Shown here: in pieces, positions 2,270-55,416 of the stretch
Layout of the letters: each line of letters opens with the position of its first letter
Numbering within the stretch: position 1 is the first letter of the stretch
NCBI GenBank assembly: GCA_001858525.1
Contig: LAPX01000016.1
Location: forward strand, 1-64,000
DNA from: Vampirovibrio chlorellavorus
GTDB taxonomy: Bacteria > Cyanobacteriota > Vampirovibrionia > Vampirovibrionales > Vampirovibrionaceae
Direction of reading: 5' to 3'
Length of the DNA: 64,000 bases
Position numbers and translations under genes: made by a program
Notes under the pieces: model-generated
Seen by the model: only the letters and a program-made list of their open reading frames with translations
Told to the model about the DNA's origin: nothing
Databases searched by the model: none

Positions 2270-4651
2270 TTACTGCTCAATATCCCGGAAGAACTCATAG
2301 TAATCTGCTTTTTCGTCGCCATCATTAATATTATCCCAGATGCTGCCACGGTGGTTACCATCATTACCTCCCAGCACCGTTAAAATGGCCCTGCGCTCTT
2401 CCACAGTAAACTTGCCTGTACGGTCATTGAAGGCCGCCCACATATCATCACTCGTAATCAAGTCATCTGGACTTCCGCCCAGAATGGCGTCAATTTTCTT
2501 AAGCAACGCATTATCGTTGCGGGCAAAAATTTCCCTGGCTTTCTTTTTATCCTCGGCTGATATGACCGACTGATCACCCACATCAAGCCCAAAATTTTCC
2601 TCAATCGGTCCACTGGCCACCGCTTGAATCAAGTCTATTTGCAGGCCCTCATCATCATGGCCGTCCATCTTTTCATACATTTCCATCTTTTGTAATTCTG
2701 CCGGATTATTCACAATCCACTTGCACGCTTCCCGCAACTCGTAAGGGGCAGGCTGAGAGCCATCGGCAATAGCTTTAATGGTTTTGATATCCACAAATTT
2801 TCCGGAACCATCCGTGAGACTACCCGTAAAGTTTCCGGCTTGGTCAAAATTACCTGTAGCCAAGGTGCCGTTATTAATGGCCTTTGCCAAGACCGCGTAG
2901 GCATCCTGAGAGTTATTAAAGGTCATCGTGGTAGGGGGCAAATAGCCGGGGTCTGCTTTGGCCGCATCGGTAAAGGTCTGCAGATCTTGAAAAGAGAATG
3001 TTTCCCGGGTATCCAACGCCGCCATCAATGCCTCATTTTTCAAAGCGGCTTTAGCGGCGGCTACCAATTTGTCACTAAACTTCTTGTCTTTGTTATCAGC
3101 AACTGCCTGTAAATCCTGCTTGTTAACCAAATCATCATCGAGACTGCCCGCACCAGCCTGATCCAAAGAGGCTTTGTTGTCATTTAACGTGCTTAAAATA
3201 TCTTTCAGCGTCAAATTATCCGGACTATCAGCGGCCGCCTCCTCCTGAGTGGTGCTCATAAAGTCAGTATCGGCCAAGGCGCTGGCAATATCTGCTTCAG
3301 TAACAGTCTCTGCTGTTCCGTCTTTACCCGCCAGTTCTTTGAAAATCTCGGGATTGCTTTGCAGGTATTTGACCACAGCCAGCAATTCCTTGTTTTTAGA
3401 TTGTCGGGCTGCCCGGGACAAATCGAGTAAGGAAATACTGCTGGCATCGCCATCCAGCTTGGCAATGTCATTAAACGATTCATCCAGTAGATCGACCGCC
3501 GTGGCATTATCCGAGATGGTAAAGTCCTCACCACTGACCGAGGAGGCATCCCCCGTGGCGGCCAGAATATCGGGATCGCTGATGGATCTACTCAAGTTCT
3601 CAAGCGTGACCTTGGTGTCCTCGGTGTCATCCATGGCATCCATCTGGTTCCAAATGTCCTGATGGGCCAGCATAAACTTGGCCGCGGCCTGGGCTTCCGG
3701 TGAGAAATCACCGTCTTTGTTCTGGGAAACAATCACCAGATCCTGAACACTGACTGAAGAAGAATCGTCATCCGCATCGGCAATATCCTCGCCCTCACCA
3801 ATCAGACTGGTCAGTGCGGTAGCCGGATCTTCCACGGGGGCCGCTGAATCATCGGTTGAGGTCTCTTCAGGTGGATTATCCGCCGAAGCATTCAAGATAT
3901 TGGCATCACTCAAGGCCTTGCTTAAATTCTGGATAGAGGCCTTGGTATCGGCATTGTTATCCAGGTTATCAATGGCGGCCCAAATGGCCTGATTGGACAT
4001 CAGGAATTGAGCGGCGGCCTGGGCATCGGCGGAATATTTGCCGTCCTTGTTTCTGGCCACGGTGGCCAAATCTGCGGTACTCACGCTGTTCGCGTCACCA
4101 TCCGCGCTGGCGATATCGGAAGCCTCACCCAGCACAGCCGTCAAGGCAGTGGCCGGATCAGAAATGGCGGAAGCATCAGCCTCTCCCGCAGGCCCTCCTT
4201 CTGCAGTAGGCAACCCTAAAAGCCCAGACAAAGATCCCATGAGCGTATTGAACACCGTCATCAATGGATTCTCTGGTTGAGCAGGCTGCTGTGTGGATTG
4301 CAAGGTACCTAACAGAGAATTAAACATATTCATTAACGGGGCTTCGGGGCCAGCGGACTGCTGGGGGAATCCCATAGGCATTTGCGGTTGCATCGGCCCC
4401 ATGCCTAACAAGGGTCTGCCGGTAAAGGGATCGACAGGAACGGGTGCGCCCATTGGGCCAGGCATGGGACCTATTCCAGACGGAAGACCGGGAATGGCCA
4501 TAGCCATGGGTGGCCCGGCAAACGGATTGACCCCGGGAATCCCGGCAAACATGGGCGGCAAGGGCCGAGGGGGAAAAGGAGCTCCGGGCATTGGCATGCC
4601 CTGGCGGGGCATCATTCCAGGAAAACCCATTGGATTAGACGGAAAAACCAT
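2270..4651 (-). CDS. Large EF-hand-like repeat protein with Met/Pro/Gly-rich N-terminus
   Basis: The 793-residue product starts at 4651 behind a strong GGAGGAGA ribosome binding site (9 nt); 25 upstream in-frame residues are excluded. The first ~110 residues are Met/Pro/Gly-rich. Two short amphipathic repeats follow (PLMNMFNSLLGTL, PLMTVFNTLMGSL). The rest is about six modules of roughly 90-110 residues on one plan: DPATALT, a loop such as DGDANSVSTADL, NKDGKYS, an Ala-rich helix with LMSNQAIWAAID, then a second acidic loop. The loops resemble calcium-binding EF-hands, and the last module ends near NDGDEKADYYEFF. The helix-N-P-helix-D-G-L pattern recalls repeats in NolX/HrpF-type secreted proteins, but this comparison is from memory and weak. 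There is no classical signal peptide. It is probably an acidic, exported calcium-binding protein, which is inference. Confidence 0.85.
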   Translation of the reverse strand: MVFPSNPMGFPGMMPRQGMPMPGAPFPPRPLPPMFAGIPGVNPFAGPPMAMAIPGLPSGIGPMPGPMGAPVPVDPFTGRPLLGMGPMQPQMPMGFPQQSAGPEAPLMNMFNSLLGTLQSTQQPAQPENPLMTVFNTLMGSLSGLLGLPTAEGGPAGEADASAISDPATALTAVLGEASDIASADGDANSVSTADLATVARNKDGKYSADAQAAAQFLMSNQAIWAAIDNLDNNADTKASIQNLSKALSDANILNASADNPPEETSTDDSAAPVEDPATALTSLIGEGEDIADADDDSSSVSVQDLVIVSQNKDGDFSPEAQAAAKFMLAHQDIWNQMDAMDDTEDTKVTLENLSRSISDPDILAATGDASSVSGEDFTISDNATAVDLLDESFNDIAKLDGDASSISLLDLSRAARQSKNKELLAVVKYLQSNPEIFKELAGKDGTAETVTEADIASALADTDFMSTTQEEAAADSPDNLTLKDILSTLNDNKASLDQAGAGSLDDDLVNKQDLQAVADNKDKKFSDKLVAAAKAALKNEALMAALDTRETFSFQDLQTFTDAAKADPGYLPPTTMTFNNSQDAYAVLAKAINNGTLATGNFDQAGNFTGSLTDGSGKFVDIKTIKAIADGSQPAPYELREACKWIVNNPAELQKMEMYEKMDGHDDEGLQIDLIQAVASGPIEENFGLDVGDQSVISAEDKKKAREIFARNDNALLKKIDAILGGSPDDLITSDDMWAAFNDRTGKFTVEERRAILTVLGGNDGNHRGSIWDNINDGDEKADYYEFFRDIEQ

Positions 4652-4797: not shown

Positions 4798-4829
4798 AAT
4801 AAAAACATTCATATGGGCAAAATTGCTTG
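4798..4829 (-). promoter_or_regulatory. Conserved bipartite upstream element, copy B
   Basis: AATAAAAACATT, 10 nt, AAATTGCTTG on the plus strand. Both outer blocks are identical to copy A while the 10-nt spacer differs completely, which argues for selection on the blocks. It lies 146 nt before the start at 4651. A candidate -10 (TATGCT on the minus strand) follows four bases downstream. The 406-nt gap 4652-5057 otherwise holds the terminator at 4997-5033 and no convincing gene. Confidence 0.7.
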
Positions 4830-5057: not shown

Positions 5058-6005
5058 TTAATCAATCTCCCGCAGATCGCTTGCCACTGTATCGCTTTCA
5101 AGCTGTTTAGCAAGTTCCTCTGGAGAACCCAGATGGTTAATGCTATCGCGTCCATAAGTGGTGTGAACAACATCAGAAAAGTGGGTGCTGAGAAAGCGAA
5201 GATAAGCCTTCTCTTCCACACTGTATTTATCACTTTTCAGTGCCATATCAACTTCATCTTTAGTAATTCCGGCAAAACCGTCGCCATTAAGAACGCCAAC
5301 CTTTTTGGCAAGCTCCTGGCCATCACTGTCATTTGCCAAGTAATCGATCACATCTTCGCCATCGCTAGGGCCAATATTATCATCCGCAAGGGCGTCAACA
5401 TCATCAATGTTGTCCTCATCAAAGCCACCTTTGACATTCACACCAAACTTGCCGCCTTCCACATCAAACTCGTTTGACAAATTCAGCATTACGGTTTGAC
5501 CGGTCTCATCCTCTTTTAACCAAGTCAAGGCGGCCTGCAAGTCTGCGGATACATCAACGCCTTTGGTCTCGCCTTTTTCAATTTTTCTGAGAATCTTGCC
5601 GACTTCTTTTTCCGTTAAAATACCATCATTATTTCCAAACTTTTTTTCCAGTTTCGTCAGTTCGGAATCGTTTTCGTTCAAGACCTCTAAATAATCACTG
5701 GTCTCACTATCAGGACCCAATGTGGCATCAGAAACGCCCGGGTCTGCAGTACCAGGATCCTGACCCGGATCGGGGCAAGGCTGCTCCGAAGTTGAAGTGC
5801 CGGTCAACAATGACATCACCAGACCCATCAAGGGTTGAATCACTGCGCCCAAAATGGCATTGGGATCAGTCCCGCCAGCATTGGCACCGGGCTGGGTTGG
5901 ATAGGTGGGGTAACCTGCACCAGGATAGCCTGCACCAGGGTAACCCATACCGTAGCCGTAACCTGGTTGTGGAAAATATTGCGTACCAGTCGTTTGGAAT
6001 GTCAT
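5058..6005 (-). CDS. EF-hand protein with Gly/Tyr/Pro-rich N-terminus
   Basis: This 315-residue protein starts behind AGGAGGAG at 9 nt. Residues 1-45 are Gly/Tyr/Pro repeats (GYGYGMGYPGAGYPGAGYP) like those of the 135-residue neighbour. A hydrophobic helix follows (ILGAVIQPLMGLVMSLLTG), matching in placement the amphipathic repeats of the 793-residue neighbour. The remainder is acidic and has EF-hand-like loops, clearest at FGNNDGILTEKEVG and again near LNGDGFAGITKDEVD. No signal peptide is seen. It therefore combines the N-terminus of one neighbour with the loop modules of the other, and all three share the upstream element, so a common role is likely. Function is unknown; an exported or surface calcium-binding protein is the best guess. 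Confidence 0.85.
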   Translation of the reverse strand: MTFQTTGTQYFPQPGYGYGMGYPGAGYPGAGYPTYPTQPGANAGGTDPNAILGAVIQPLMGLVMSLLTGTSTSEQPCPDPGQDPGTADPGVSDATLGPDSETSDYLEVLNENDSELTKLEKKFGNNDGILTEKEVGKILRKIEKGETKGVDVSADLQAALTWLKEDETGQTVMLNLSNEFDVEGGKFGVNVKGGFDEDNIDDVDALADDNIGPSDGEDVIDYLANDSDGQELAKKVGVLNGDGFAGITKDEVDMALKSDKYSVEEKAYLRFLSTHFSDVVHTTYGRDSINHLGSPEELAKQLESDTVASDLREID

Positions 6006-6222: not shown

Positions 6223-6254
6223 AATAAAAACATTCAATTGGGCTGAATTGCCAA
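6223..6254 (-). promoter_or_regulatory. Conserved bipartite upstream element, copy C
   Basis: AATAAAAACATT, 10 nt, GAATTGCCAA on the plus strand, 217 nt before the start at 6005. The first block is identical to copies A and B; the second keeps AATTGC. The 367-nt gap 6006-6372 shows nothing else supportable. Confidence 0.7.
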
Positions 6255-52989: not shown

Positions 52990-53202
52990 TCACCCCCGAG
53001 TCAATGAGAAGCCTTGAATTGTTAAGACTTGTAAAGCATTAAATCCTGAAAAGACGCTGCCCCCAAAAGGATCGCCGGATGCGGGTTTGTGACCATTCCG
53101 TGACAAATTGACCCGCTTCCACCCACAAAAACTTAAACCACCAGCGTCCCCATCCGCACATTCTTACCCGTGTTTCTGATGGCCTTCCCACTTCAGCAGC
53201 AA

Positions 53203-53236
53203 CAGAGCCTGGTACACGTTACTGCACCAGGCTCTG
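53203..53236 (-). terminator. Terminator of the Gly/Ala-rich small gene
   Basis: CAGAGCCTGGT (53203-53213) and ACCAGGCTCTG (53226-53236) form a perfect 11-bp stem, 21 nt past the stop at 53258. The T-rich flank is on the plus-strand side, so the orientation is less certain. Confidence 0.7.
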
Positions 53237-53257
53237 ACGTTATTTTATAGCGGCGAA

Positions 53258-53461
53258 CTATGTCGCCGGGGGTGTGATCCCCAGATCCGCATAGAACTTC
53301 CTCAATGCCGGAGGAATAGCACCCTCGGCATCCAAGGCTGGCGCCGCTCCTGCGCCACCGCCACCAGGGGGGCCTCCTGCTGCACGAGCCCGGGTCAAAT
53401 CTGCTGCGGCTGCTGCGCCACCGCCACCGCCGCCACCGGCGCCACCAACACCACCACACAT
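53258..53461 (-). CDS. Gly/Ala-rich small protein with shared upstream element
   Basis: The 67-residue protein starts CGGVGGAGGGGGGGAAAAAD and contains further Gly/Pro runs, then a folded-looking tail (EGAIPPALRKFYADLGITPP). AAGGAG 8 nt before the ATG at 53461 fixes the start; a TTG two codons upstream is inferior. Copy D of the bipartite element sits 84 nt upstream, linking it to the low-complexity genes at 1.5-6 kb. It has one N-terminal Cys but no lipobox or signal peptide. The function is unknown. Confidence 0.7.
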   Translation of the reverse strand: MCGGVGGAGGGGGGGAAAAADLTRARAAGGPPGGGGAGAAPALDAEGAIPPALRKFYADLGITPPAT

Positions 53462-53545
53462 AGGCAAATCTCCTTCTTTCTACTTCTCAATAAACTGCGC
53501 TTTAAACCAATCAACTTTTATTAATGACTCAGACAATTACAATTT

Positions 53546-53577
53546 AATAAAAACAATCAAAAAAAGAGAATTGAGTC
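53546..53577 (-). promoter_or_regulatory. Conserved bipartite upstream element, copy D
   Basis: AATAAAAACAAT, 10 nt, GAATTGAGTC on the plus strand. It differs from copy C by one base in the first block and three in the second, with identical spacing. Four bases past the block on the minus strand is TGTAAT, a candidate -10 box. Confidence 0.6.
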
Positions 53578-53614
53578 GATTCCCATAAAATTTTTAAAAA
53601 CTTATCAAAACGCG

Positions 53615-53640
53615 AAAAGTCCCTGAAATTAGGGACTTTC
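53615..53640 (-). terminator. Terminator of the ETF-QO gene
   Basis: AAAAGTCCCT and AGGGACTTTC form a stem with a 6-nt loop; on the minus strand a TTTTC tail follows, 43 nt past the stop at 53683. Confidence 0.8.
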
Positions 53641-53682
53641 CAACTTGAGACAGACGCAGGTCCAGGAACTACAGAGCGATGT

Positions 53683-55416
53683 TTACAGCCCCAGAAAATC
53701 CGGTCCGGAACCCTGCTCGGCGGCACGCACTTTCAGGTTCACTTCCGGGCACACAATTTCACAGGTGCGGCACTGTATACAGTTCTCCAGAGACATGCCA
53801 TGCTTGCGCACCCCGGCCAGGTCATCCACCCGATGCACTTCCGCCGTGCAATCGGAGACGCACGGGGTGGTCTTTTGCATGGACTCGTAGCTGCTAATAC
53901 ACTTGACGCACACATCGGCATTAAACTCATCAATGTGCAAATTGCCTTCATGGTACTTGGGATCGGCATAAAACACGGCGTCGGGGCGAGAAACCACCGT
54001 AGCGTCATCATATTTGGGCGGGGTCAGGCTGGCCGGTTTGTAATTGGGAATTATATGCTGATAATCCGGCTTATAGCTTAAGCGCCCAATATCGTGGGTG
54101 CCTTCAATAAAACCCTTCAGCCGCAAAGCGTCGGTCATGGCCGTTATGGGGTTGTTTTTCAGGCCCACGCTGATCAACCCCGCATAGGGGCTGCTGGTAT
54201 CAATGCCCTGTAGCACTTCCGGCAAATAGGTATTGAGCAAGCGGGGATTTTCCTCCCAGGCGTGGCGGAAGTAACGGCCTTTTTTCAGTTCCTGCCCGAT
54301 AAACCCGGCCATAACCTGTTGCTGATAGGGCGCCAAAGCCGCTTGGGTAAAGTCCCCGCCAGCTTTCAAAATCTCGTGGATGACCTGAGCGGCGATATAG
54401 CCCGTTTCCATGGACTTATCCACCCCGGAAAGGCAACTGACATCCAGCACGCCCAAGGCATCACCCAAAATCAAGGCCCCATCCACCTGAAACTGCCGAG
54501 GCAGGCTGTAATAGCCGCCCTCGGGTAACAAAGCGGCCCCGTATTTGAGCAACTTGCCCCCTTTGAGCATACCCTGAAGCCAAGGGTGCTTTTTGAGCTC
54601 CTGCAATTTTTCTTGCGGATTCAGATTAGGGTTTGGGCTGTCCAGCGAGGCAATAAGGCCCACGGTGAGCTTGTTGCCCTTCATGCCATAGATAAAGCCA
54701 CCCCCAAAGGTGCCATCCACCAGCGGATAACCCATGGTGTGCCAGACCTGACCCTCAAAACTTTTGCCCTCGGCCAGTTCCCACACTTCTTTCACGCCCA
54801 CCGACCACTTTTGGGGATTTTCCCGCAGGTTGAATCGGGAAATCAGGTCTCGGGAAACAAAACCCTTGTCCCCAAAGCACACCACCCGGCCGTAGATATT
54901 ATCCTCATCGGGGCTGCCGGTGGACTGCTCCACCACTTGCACCCCAGTGACCGTGTCGCCTTCATATACCACCGAATGGGCGGCAAAAGCCGGAAACAAA
55001 TCGCCATGAATGTTTTCGGCGGCACTGACTTTTTCTTCCAGCTTTTCAGCCAGCCACTTCACCACCTCGCTGAGGGTGAGAATGTAGTAGCCTTCTTTTT
55101 TCACCCCATCGGGCATGAGGGGACGAGGCACATGCCAGACATTCTGGGCCCCCAGCACCGAAAATTTACTGTCCTGGCAAATTCCTTCCAGCGGAAAATC
55201 CAATTGCTCCAGGTTGGGGAACACTTTTTTCAGCACCCGGGGATTGGAAACCGCCCCGCTGACGATATGAGCCCCGAATTCTTTGCCTTTTTCTAGCACA
55301 CCAAAAGTAAAAGCCGTGCCACTTTCAATAGCCAAATCCACCAAACGATGGGCCAAAATGAGGTTGGACGGACTACCGCCCACCAAAAGCACATCATATT
55401 CCACCCGATCAGACAT
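53683..55416 (-). CDS. Electron-transfer-flavoprotein:quinone oxidoreductase-like protein
   Basis: This 577-residue flavoprotein passes electrons from electron-transfer flavoprotein to quinone. It has an N-terminal FAD domain, GALILGDALGVLDVSCLSGVDKSMETG (ADP-ribose/GD region of the FixC family) and a C-terminal ferredoxin-like [4Fe-4S] domain with Cys in VCVKCISSYESMQK and CIQCRTCEIVCPEVN. The usual GxGPAGL dinucleotide motif is replaced by VGGSPSNLILAHRL. The C-terminus ends GSGPDFLGL. It lies 37 nt downstream of the FNR gene on the same strand, so the two may share an operon. No etfAB is in the window. Confidence 0.88.
   Translation of the reverse strand: MSDRVEYDVLLVGGSPSNLILAHRLVDLAIESGTAFTFGVLEKGKEFGAHIVSGAVSNPRVLKKVFPNLEQLDFPLEGICQDSKFSVLGAQNVWHVPRPLMPDGVKKEGYYILTLSEVVKWLAEKLEEKVSAAENIHGDLFPAFAAHSVVYEGDTVTGVQVVEQSTGSPDEDNIYGRVVCFGDKGFVSRDLISRFNLRENPQKWSVGVKEVWELAEGKSFEGQVWHTMGYPLVDGTFGGGFIYGMKGNKLTVGLIASLDSPNPNLNPQEKLQELKKHPWLQGMLKGGKLLKYGAALLPEGGYYSLPRQFQVDGALILGDALGVLDVSCLSGVDKSMETGYIAAQVIHEILKAGGDFTQAALAPYQQQVMAGFIGQELKKGRYFRHAWEENPRLLNTYLPEVLQGIDTSSPYAGLISVGLKNNPITAMTDALRLKGFIEGTHDIGRLSYKPDYQHIIPNYKPASLTPPKYDDATVVSRPDAVFYADPKYHEGNLHIDEFNADVCVKCISSYESMQKTTPCVSDCTAEVHRVDDLAGVRKHGMSLENCIQCRTCEIVCPEVNLKVRAAEQGSGPDFLGL

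Follow-up and report, generated by a model that had tools for sequence, protein, structure and literature searches.

Within the window (i.e., the whole 64,000-nt stretch of DNA analysed here), a small gene on the − strand at 53258..53461 encodes a 67-aa, Gly/Ala/Pro-rich protein that begins MCGGVGGAGGGGGGGAAAAADLTRAR... in the ORF translation. The gene is an orphan: no homologue of the protein was found in 18 relatives, and Pfam gave no match above cut-off for this ORF, for the other window products, or for the products at two further loci (L016 and L013). A preliminary description of the locus had credited the gene with a good ribosome binding site, and it does have one: AAGGAG, at 53470..53475 (−), stands 8 nt before the ATG at 53461. 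As had also been noted, 84 nt separate this ATG from the end of a short core element, CAATTCTCTTTTTTTGATTGTTTTTATT, at 53546..53573 (−), which is supported by pattern, genome counts, alignment and profile. The 84-nt leader (53462..53545, −) contains TTTAAAGCGCAG; AGCGCA is a recurrent sequence in leaders behind the element. A terminator-like hairpin without a long T run (AGAGCCTGGT...ACCAGGCTCT, 53204..53235, −) lies right after the stop codon, and another terminator-like hairpin (AAAGTCCCTGAAATTAGGGACTTT, 53616..53639), read from the sequence, lies between the element and the upstream gene at 53683-55416. With hairpins on either side, the element, the ribosome binding site and the ORF thus appear to form a complete, self-contained transcription unit.

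On the + strand, positions 53546-53577 read AATAAAAACAAT CAAAAAAAGA GAATTGAGTC, in agreement with the preliminary description, which also reported four copies with the same internal spacing in the window. All four were recovered, each on the − strand: at 53546-53573, at 6223-6250 before a 315-aa gene (5058-6005), at 4798-4825 before the gene at 2270-4651 (ATG at 4651), and at 1994-2021 before a 135-aa Gly/Tyr/Pro-rich gene (ATG at 1895). In gene orientation, the four share the core CAATT-N11-A[AT]TGTTTTTATT with identical spacing, and shuffles of the window gave no match like that at 53546-53577.

The element is far from confined to the window. The genome (3.03 Mb in 28 contigs) is placed in Vampirovibrio by a conserved neighbour gene, whose top matches come from Vampirovibrio MAGs. 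It has 14 exact copies of the core, compared to none for a reversed-pattern control, and the earlier judgement that chance was an unlikely source is borne out genome-wide. With up to two mismatches allowed, the counts are 41 and 0, respectively; a sequence-only profile trained on 70 sites recovers about 26 at E<0.01, the training sites included. Copies sit either 30–250 nt upstream of the start codons of low-complexity proteins or before terminator-ended small RNA (sRNA) candidates. Every one of 18 members of the order examined has between 5 and 38 copies, and 17 other genomes of the order together yield 343 matches, where the control yields 3. Family f6 is enriched in a variant whose end reads TTTTTATA (310 matches versus 8 in the control, across 47 genomes), with gene starts mostly 30–60 nt downstream; we infer from its position and its small, AT-rich genomes that f6 corresponds to Gastranaerophilales. 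No enrichment was seen in families f4, f5, f7, f8 and f9, other orders of the class and photosynthetic cyanobacteria have the element at background level only, and about 66 further genomes in the phylum gave about 15 matches, near the control.

Read towards the gene, the consensus is [A/G]GCAATT-N11-AWTG-TTTTTATT, and its conserved blocks are GCAATT and GTTTTTATW. In an alignment of 93 sites from six genomes, CAATT is preceded by [A/G]G (with G in 87%), positions 10-11 are CC in about half of the sites, and positions 12-15 are A/T-rich; then follow R-A-W-T-G-TTTTTATT, four A/T bases, and T-[A/G]-N-R-R at positions 33-37, with T33 (72%) and A34 (66%) conserved at a fixed distance from the core. 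Collecting sites by pattern inflates the conservation of the core, which the search imposed; the preceding G and T33-A34 were not imposed. These frequencies also qualify the account of the window copy, whose right half had been given as GAATTGAGTC: AATTG (+) is conserved and the remainder (+ strand likewise) is not. On the + strand, the usual base after AATTG is C, i.e., the G that commonly precedes CAATT; the window copy has T at that position in gene orientation, making it a somewhat off-consensus member. Its profile E value is 2.1e-5, although the copy also belongs to the training set of the profile. Across orthologous sites in this genome (G000) and G004, identity is 92% and 98% in the two blocks, compared to 40–56% in the upstream flanks; past position 33, it is about 67–81%, so that conservation continues downstream from the start site proposed below. 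Because the G004 sites were selected for carrying the element, and the 14 pairs include a few that are not truly orthologous, only the contrast between these values is meaningful.

At the window locus itself, two close relatives, G002 (a 97% relative) and G004, align with both flanks and lack the 576 nt (53107-53682) that hold gene and element; a ~141-nt spacer, orthologous between the two and unrelated to the 576-nt stretch, stands in its place. Relatives that had the gene without the copy would have refuted the preliminary reading; this condition does not apply here, as both relatives that retain the locus are without the gene and without the copy. Since the 67-aa ORF is an orphan, gene and putative promoter come or go together. 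Here G002 and G004 seem to resemble one another more closely than either resembles G000, so both a gain in G000 and a single ancestral loss are possible. A mobile-element origin of the 576-nt stretch was considered and rejected, as it has no repeats and no shared ends. Joint presence or absence at this locus, along with the sheer number of copies, would also suit a MITE-like mobile repeat scattered through the genome, or an RNA element without promoter function, a reading that we regard as highly improbable. Flanks are unrelated between copies, there are no terminal repeats, and likeness ends with the 40-bp element; moreover, the element is kept at orthologous places, and its orientation to the downstream product is always the same. 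Rfam found no match in the window or at the sRNA sites; for the latter, the best E value was 0.34, below the gathering score.

Both genome-wide and in relatives, the data support the proposal of a product class marked by the element. We compared 61 ATG-started products with a ribosome binding site, all encoded behind the element, with 46 other window genes. The N-termini of the former are of lower sequence complexity (median entropy 3.66 versus 3.97 bits, p=3.5e-11), the products are richer in G/P/A/S/N/Q/M/T (fraction 0.64 versus 0.47, p=2.5e-9), and they have fewer charged residues. By a crude test, none of the 61 has a signal-peptide-like start. Gly/Ala/Pro/Met-rich proteins are a recurrent kind, and the class is wider than originally described, extending to an alginate lyase, a methyltransferase (PF02636), helical proteins, and short terminator-ended transcripts. 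In the leaders, GAGAG (37 of 55, with 18.7 expected) and AGCGCA (13 of 55, with 2.0 expected) are over-represented. EF-hand-like motifs were rejected as a mark of the class (10/61 versus 4/46, not significant). Separately, we observed at five loci, behind or near the element, a family of 109–112-aa helical proteins that start MGFAA[SN]QAR and match nothing in Pfam or NCBIfam. The alginate lyase (PF08787, 2.2e-46; G000:C26:343947) begins with a low-complexity stretch that does not resemble a signal peptide, and is a candidate algal-wall enzyme.

Several sites precede short non-coding stretches instead of genes, some of them ended by terminators, a position that is expected of transcription signals. 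Individual cases, all of them predicted transcripts, are as follows. A tandem pair of terminator-ended transcripts (G000:C23:599594/599382, region 599382-599621) has C-rich single-stranded parts in both members; about 75 nt of the first are essentially identical in G004, where the flanks have diverged, and the first is also present in G003. A ~90-nt transcript with two hairpins (G000:C3:180433) is nearly identical in G004, and a conserved transcript of ~430 nt, in which a long UCUCUCUC tract precedes a terminator (G000:C23:46700), is likewise found there. Other transcripts behind the element share a conserved 3′ end, AACCCAGCCTATGTCC(A)ACCCTGTA... (AACCCAGCCTATGTCCAACCCTG...), in G000 (C28:76474), G001, G003 and G007. 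Pairing between the sRNA candidates, which are CU-rich, and the GAGAG-rich leaders did not rise above composition controls.

With two conserved blocks a constant distance apart, placed a short way upstream of both genes and sRNAs, the element satisfies the general criterion for a promoter of an alternative sigma factor, and we consider it probable that it is one; the inference is made without transcript, start-site or binding data. In this model, GCAATT would be the −35 block and GTTTTTAT[T/A] the −10 block, with 14 bp between them; at the window copy, they would correspond to CAATT at 53569-53573 (−) and GTTTTTATT at 53546-53554 (−), both within the core. Transcription would start about 7 nt downstream of the −10 block, i.e., at about 53538. 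With the blocks assigned in this way, A34-A36 falls at the expected start, and a TA/purine stretch is indeed conserved where a start 6–8 nt after the −10 block would lie, which in the absence of transcript data is suggestive only. At the window copy, this weakly conserved W4-T-[AG]-N-A-R stretch 3′ of the core, which lay outside the search pattern, reads AAATTGTAAT (53536..53545, −). It is proposed as the start-site region, and would instead be a −10 box if a lineage-specific transcription factor binds the element and T33-A34-N-R-R is recognised by a housekeeping or group-2 sigma factor, with a start near position 45 (about 53529). That possibility, which we consider unlikely without dismissing it, draws on T33 and A34, conserved at a constant distance and reminiscent of the TA that opens TATAAT, on the universal presence of housekeeping and group-2 sigma factors in the order, and on the imperfect inverted repeat CAATT...RATTG. 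However, position 38, the last T of such a −10 box, is not conserved, no conserved −35 is found where the housekeeping pattern (TTGACA-N17-TATAAT) would place it, and a 28-bp core that extends to the −10 box would be unusual for an activator site. The −35/−10 assignment fits the extent of the core better. Activator binding would also leave unexplained the element upstream of a sigma factor gene, to which we now turn.

An element site lies upstream of a gene for a divergent, two-domain sigma factor (G000:C28:90431-91141), which belongs to what we call clade A. The sequence marks the clade A protein as a true sigma-70 relative: it has the region 4 helix-turn-helix (PF04545, 5.4e-13), it matches TIGR02937 over its full length (1.6e-22), and, while region 2 has no Pfam match, the protein aligns to positions 18-236 of FliA (1rp3). 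The match to the FliA_WhiG profile (4.7e-19, 69 bits) is below the curated subfamily cut-off of 189.6, and a short acidic linker replaces sigma region 3. Clade A genes are preceded by a copy of the element in nine genomes, namely G000, G001, G002, G003, G004, G006, G010, G014 and G016 (PWM scores of 16.9–36.1, where 99% of background chunks score below 4.3), and by a weaker copy in G007, giving 9–10 of the 16 genomes; the other six clade A genes have no convincing copy. With the copy ~350–400 nt upstream of the clade A gene, it could serve another transcript. Clade A forms one clade spanning Vampirovibrionales and Gastranaerophilales (f6), separated from a paralogue, B, with support of 100/99. 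Its family range matches that of the element; in f4, f5, f7, f8 and f9, any homologue present is more distant. The two exceptions are G009 (93% complete, 29 element matches) and G015 (5 matches), in which B was found and clade A was not detected.

On this basis, clade A would be the most likely reader of the element and would probably drive its own gene as well. The regulon switched on in this way, low-complexity proteins that lack signal peptides together with several small RNAs, may plausibly comprise the surface and prey- or host-contact products of one life-cycle phase in predatory or host-associated, non-photosynthetic cyanobacteria (Vampirovibrionales, Gastranaerophilales), and new orphan genes, such as the 67-aa ORF, would join it by acquiring a copy of the promoter. 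We lean towards this whole explanation, with clade A as the main reader, by inference alone: the element, its spacing, conservation and placement in the genome, and the class of products behind it are observed, whereas promoter function, start site, sigma identity and life-cycle phase are all inferred. We cannot discount entirely that paralogue B (G000:C26:255343), or A and B jointly, reads the element, in which case the copy before the clade A gene would signify a cascade instead of autoregulation. B is present in nearly all genomes of the order, including G009 and G015, and A and B share a key segment, ATAIRWAIRNELR.RYKWY; the family distribution of B is the same as that of A, so presence or absence alone is no argument for A. 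No B gene has the element upstream, though, and direct evidence is lacking either way, and we rate a role for B as a rather slim prospect. SigB-like and ECF sigma factors were rejected as general readers, as none was detected in G011, a genome with 18 element matches.

The geometry of the element, two blocks across 27–28 bp, resembles that of sigma28 sites, and FliA/WhiG sigma factors are present throughout the order, raising the question of whether the element is a variant of the canonical FliA promoter. Flagellins are the usual targets of FliA. None of 29 flagellin upstream regions has the element at 3 or fewer mismatches, and three of them have near-canonical sigma28 sites (TAAAGTTT-N11-YCCGATAC); furthermore, the consensus blocks are wholly different from those of sigma28 (TAAAGTTT-N11-GCCGATAA). 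The absence of the element from flagellin genes, some with canonical sigma28 sites, excludes FliA as the reader, and we give this variant next to no credence. As a separate observation, one genome has eleven flagellin-domain matches, at G000:C14:76186-87231 and on C23.

Against this background, the clade A factor, here preferred as the reader, can be set beside known systems. It matches the TIGR02937 and FliA_WhiG models and the solved FliA structure over sigma2-sigma4, and differs from FliA/WhiG proteins in having no region 3. In the attack phase of Bdellovibrio bacteriovorus, one sigma-like motif (TTAAG-N16-CCGATA) governs most phase-specific genes, many of them uncharacterised, as well as small RNAs (PMC3627812). 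The likeness lies in a predator with a single sigma-like promoter motif and a regulon that includes small RNAs; however, the Bdellovibrio motif is read by FliA and its regulon includes flagella, whereas here flagellins are without the element, and both motif and candidate sigma factor differ. The sigma factor HrpL is of the ECF type. In plant-associated bacteria, the hrp-box regulons of HrpL mark effectors (PMC2957411, PMC3879358). They, too, combine a lineage-specific box and a dedicated alternative sigma factor with a fast-evolving set of products for interaction with the host, and the box can guide searches for further ones, but the motif and the sigma family are different, and secretion of the products behind the element is unproven. 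The proposed element system works like both regulons and is a member of neither by motif or sigma family.

To our knowledge, gene regulation in non-photosynthetic cyanobacteria is almost unknown, and our literature search found no paper that joins Gastranaerophilales with “sigma factor”. A published account of V. chlorellavorus presents it as a predator of algae that has flagella and type IV secretion, and makes no mention of sigma factors or promoters (PMC4451040). It is possible, although we hold the idea only tentatively, that the element represents an undescribed promoter class with a dedicated two-domain sigma factor in Vampirovibrionales and Gastranaerophilales, controlling a regulon of fast-turnover, low-complexity proteins and small RNAs for prey or host contact that orphan genes enter via the promoter. 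A searchable promoter would turn orphan low-complexity genes into one regulon, would provide a candidate list of prey- and host-contact proteins for an algal predator and for common gut bacteria, and names one sigma factor that is testable in vitro. Lastly, we observed a further FliA-like sigma gene (G007:C20:126-914) downstream of a predicted element-driven, terminator-ended transcript; its 100% top match is found only in G007.
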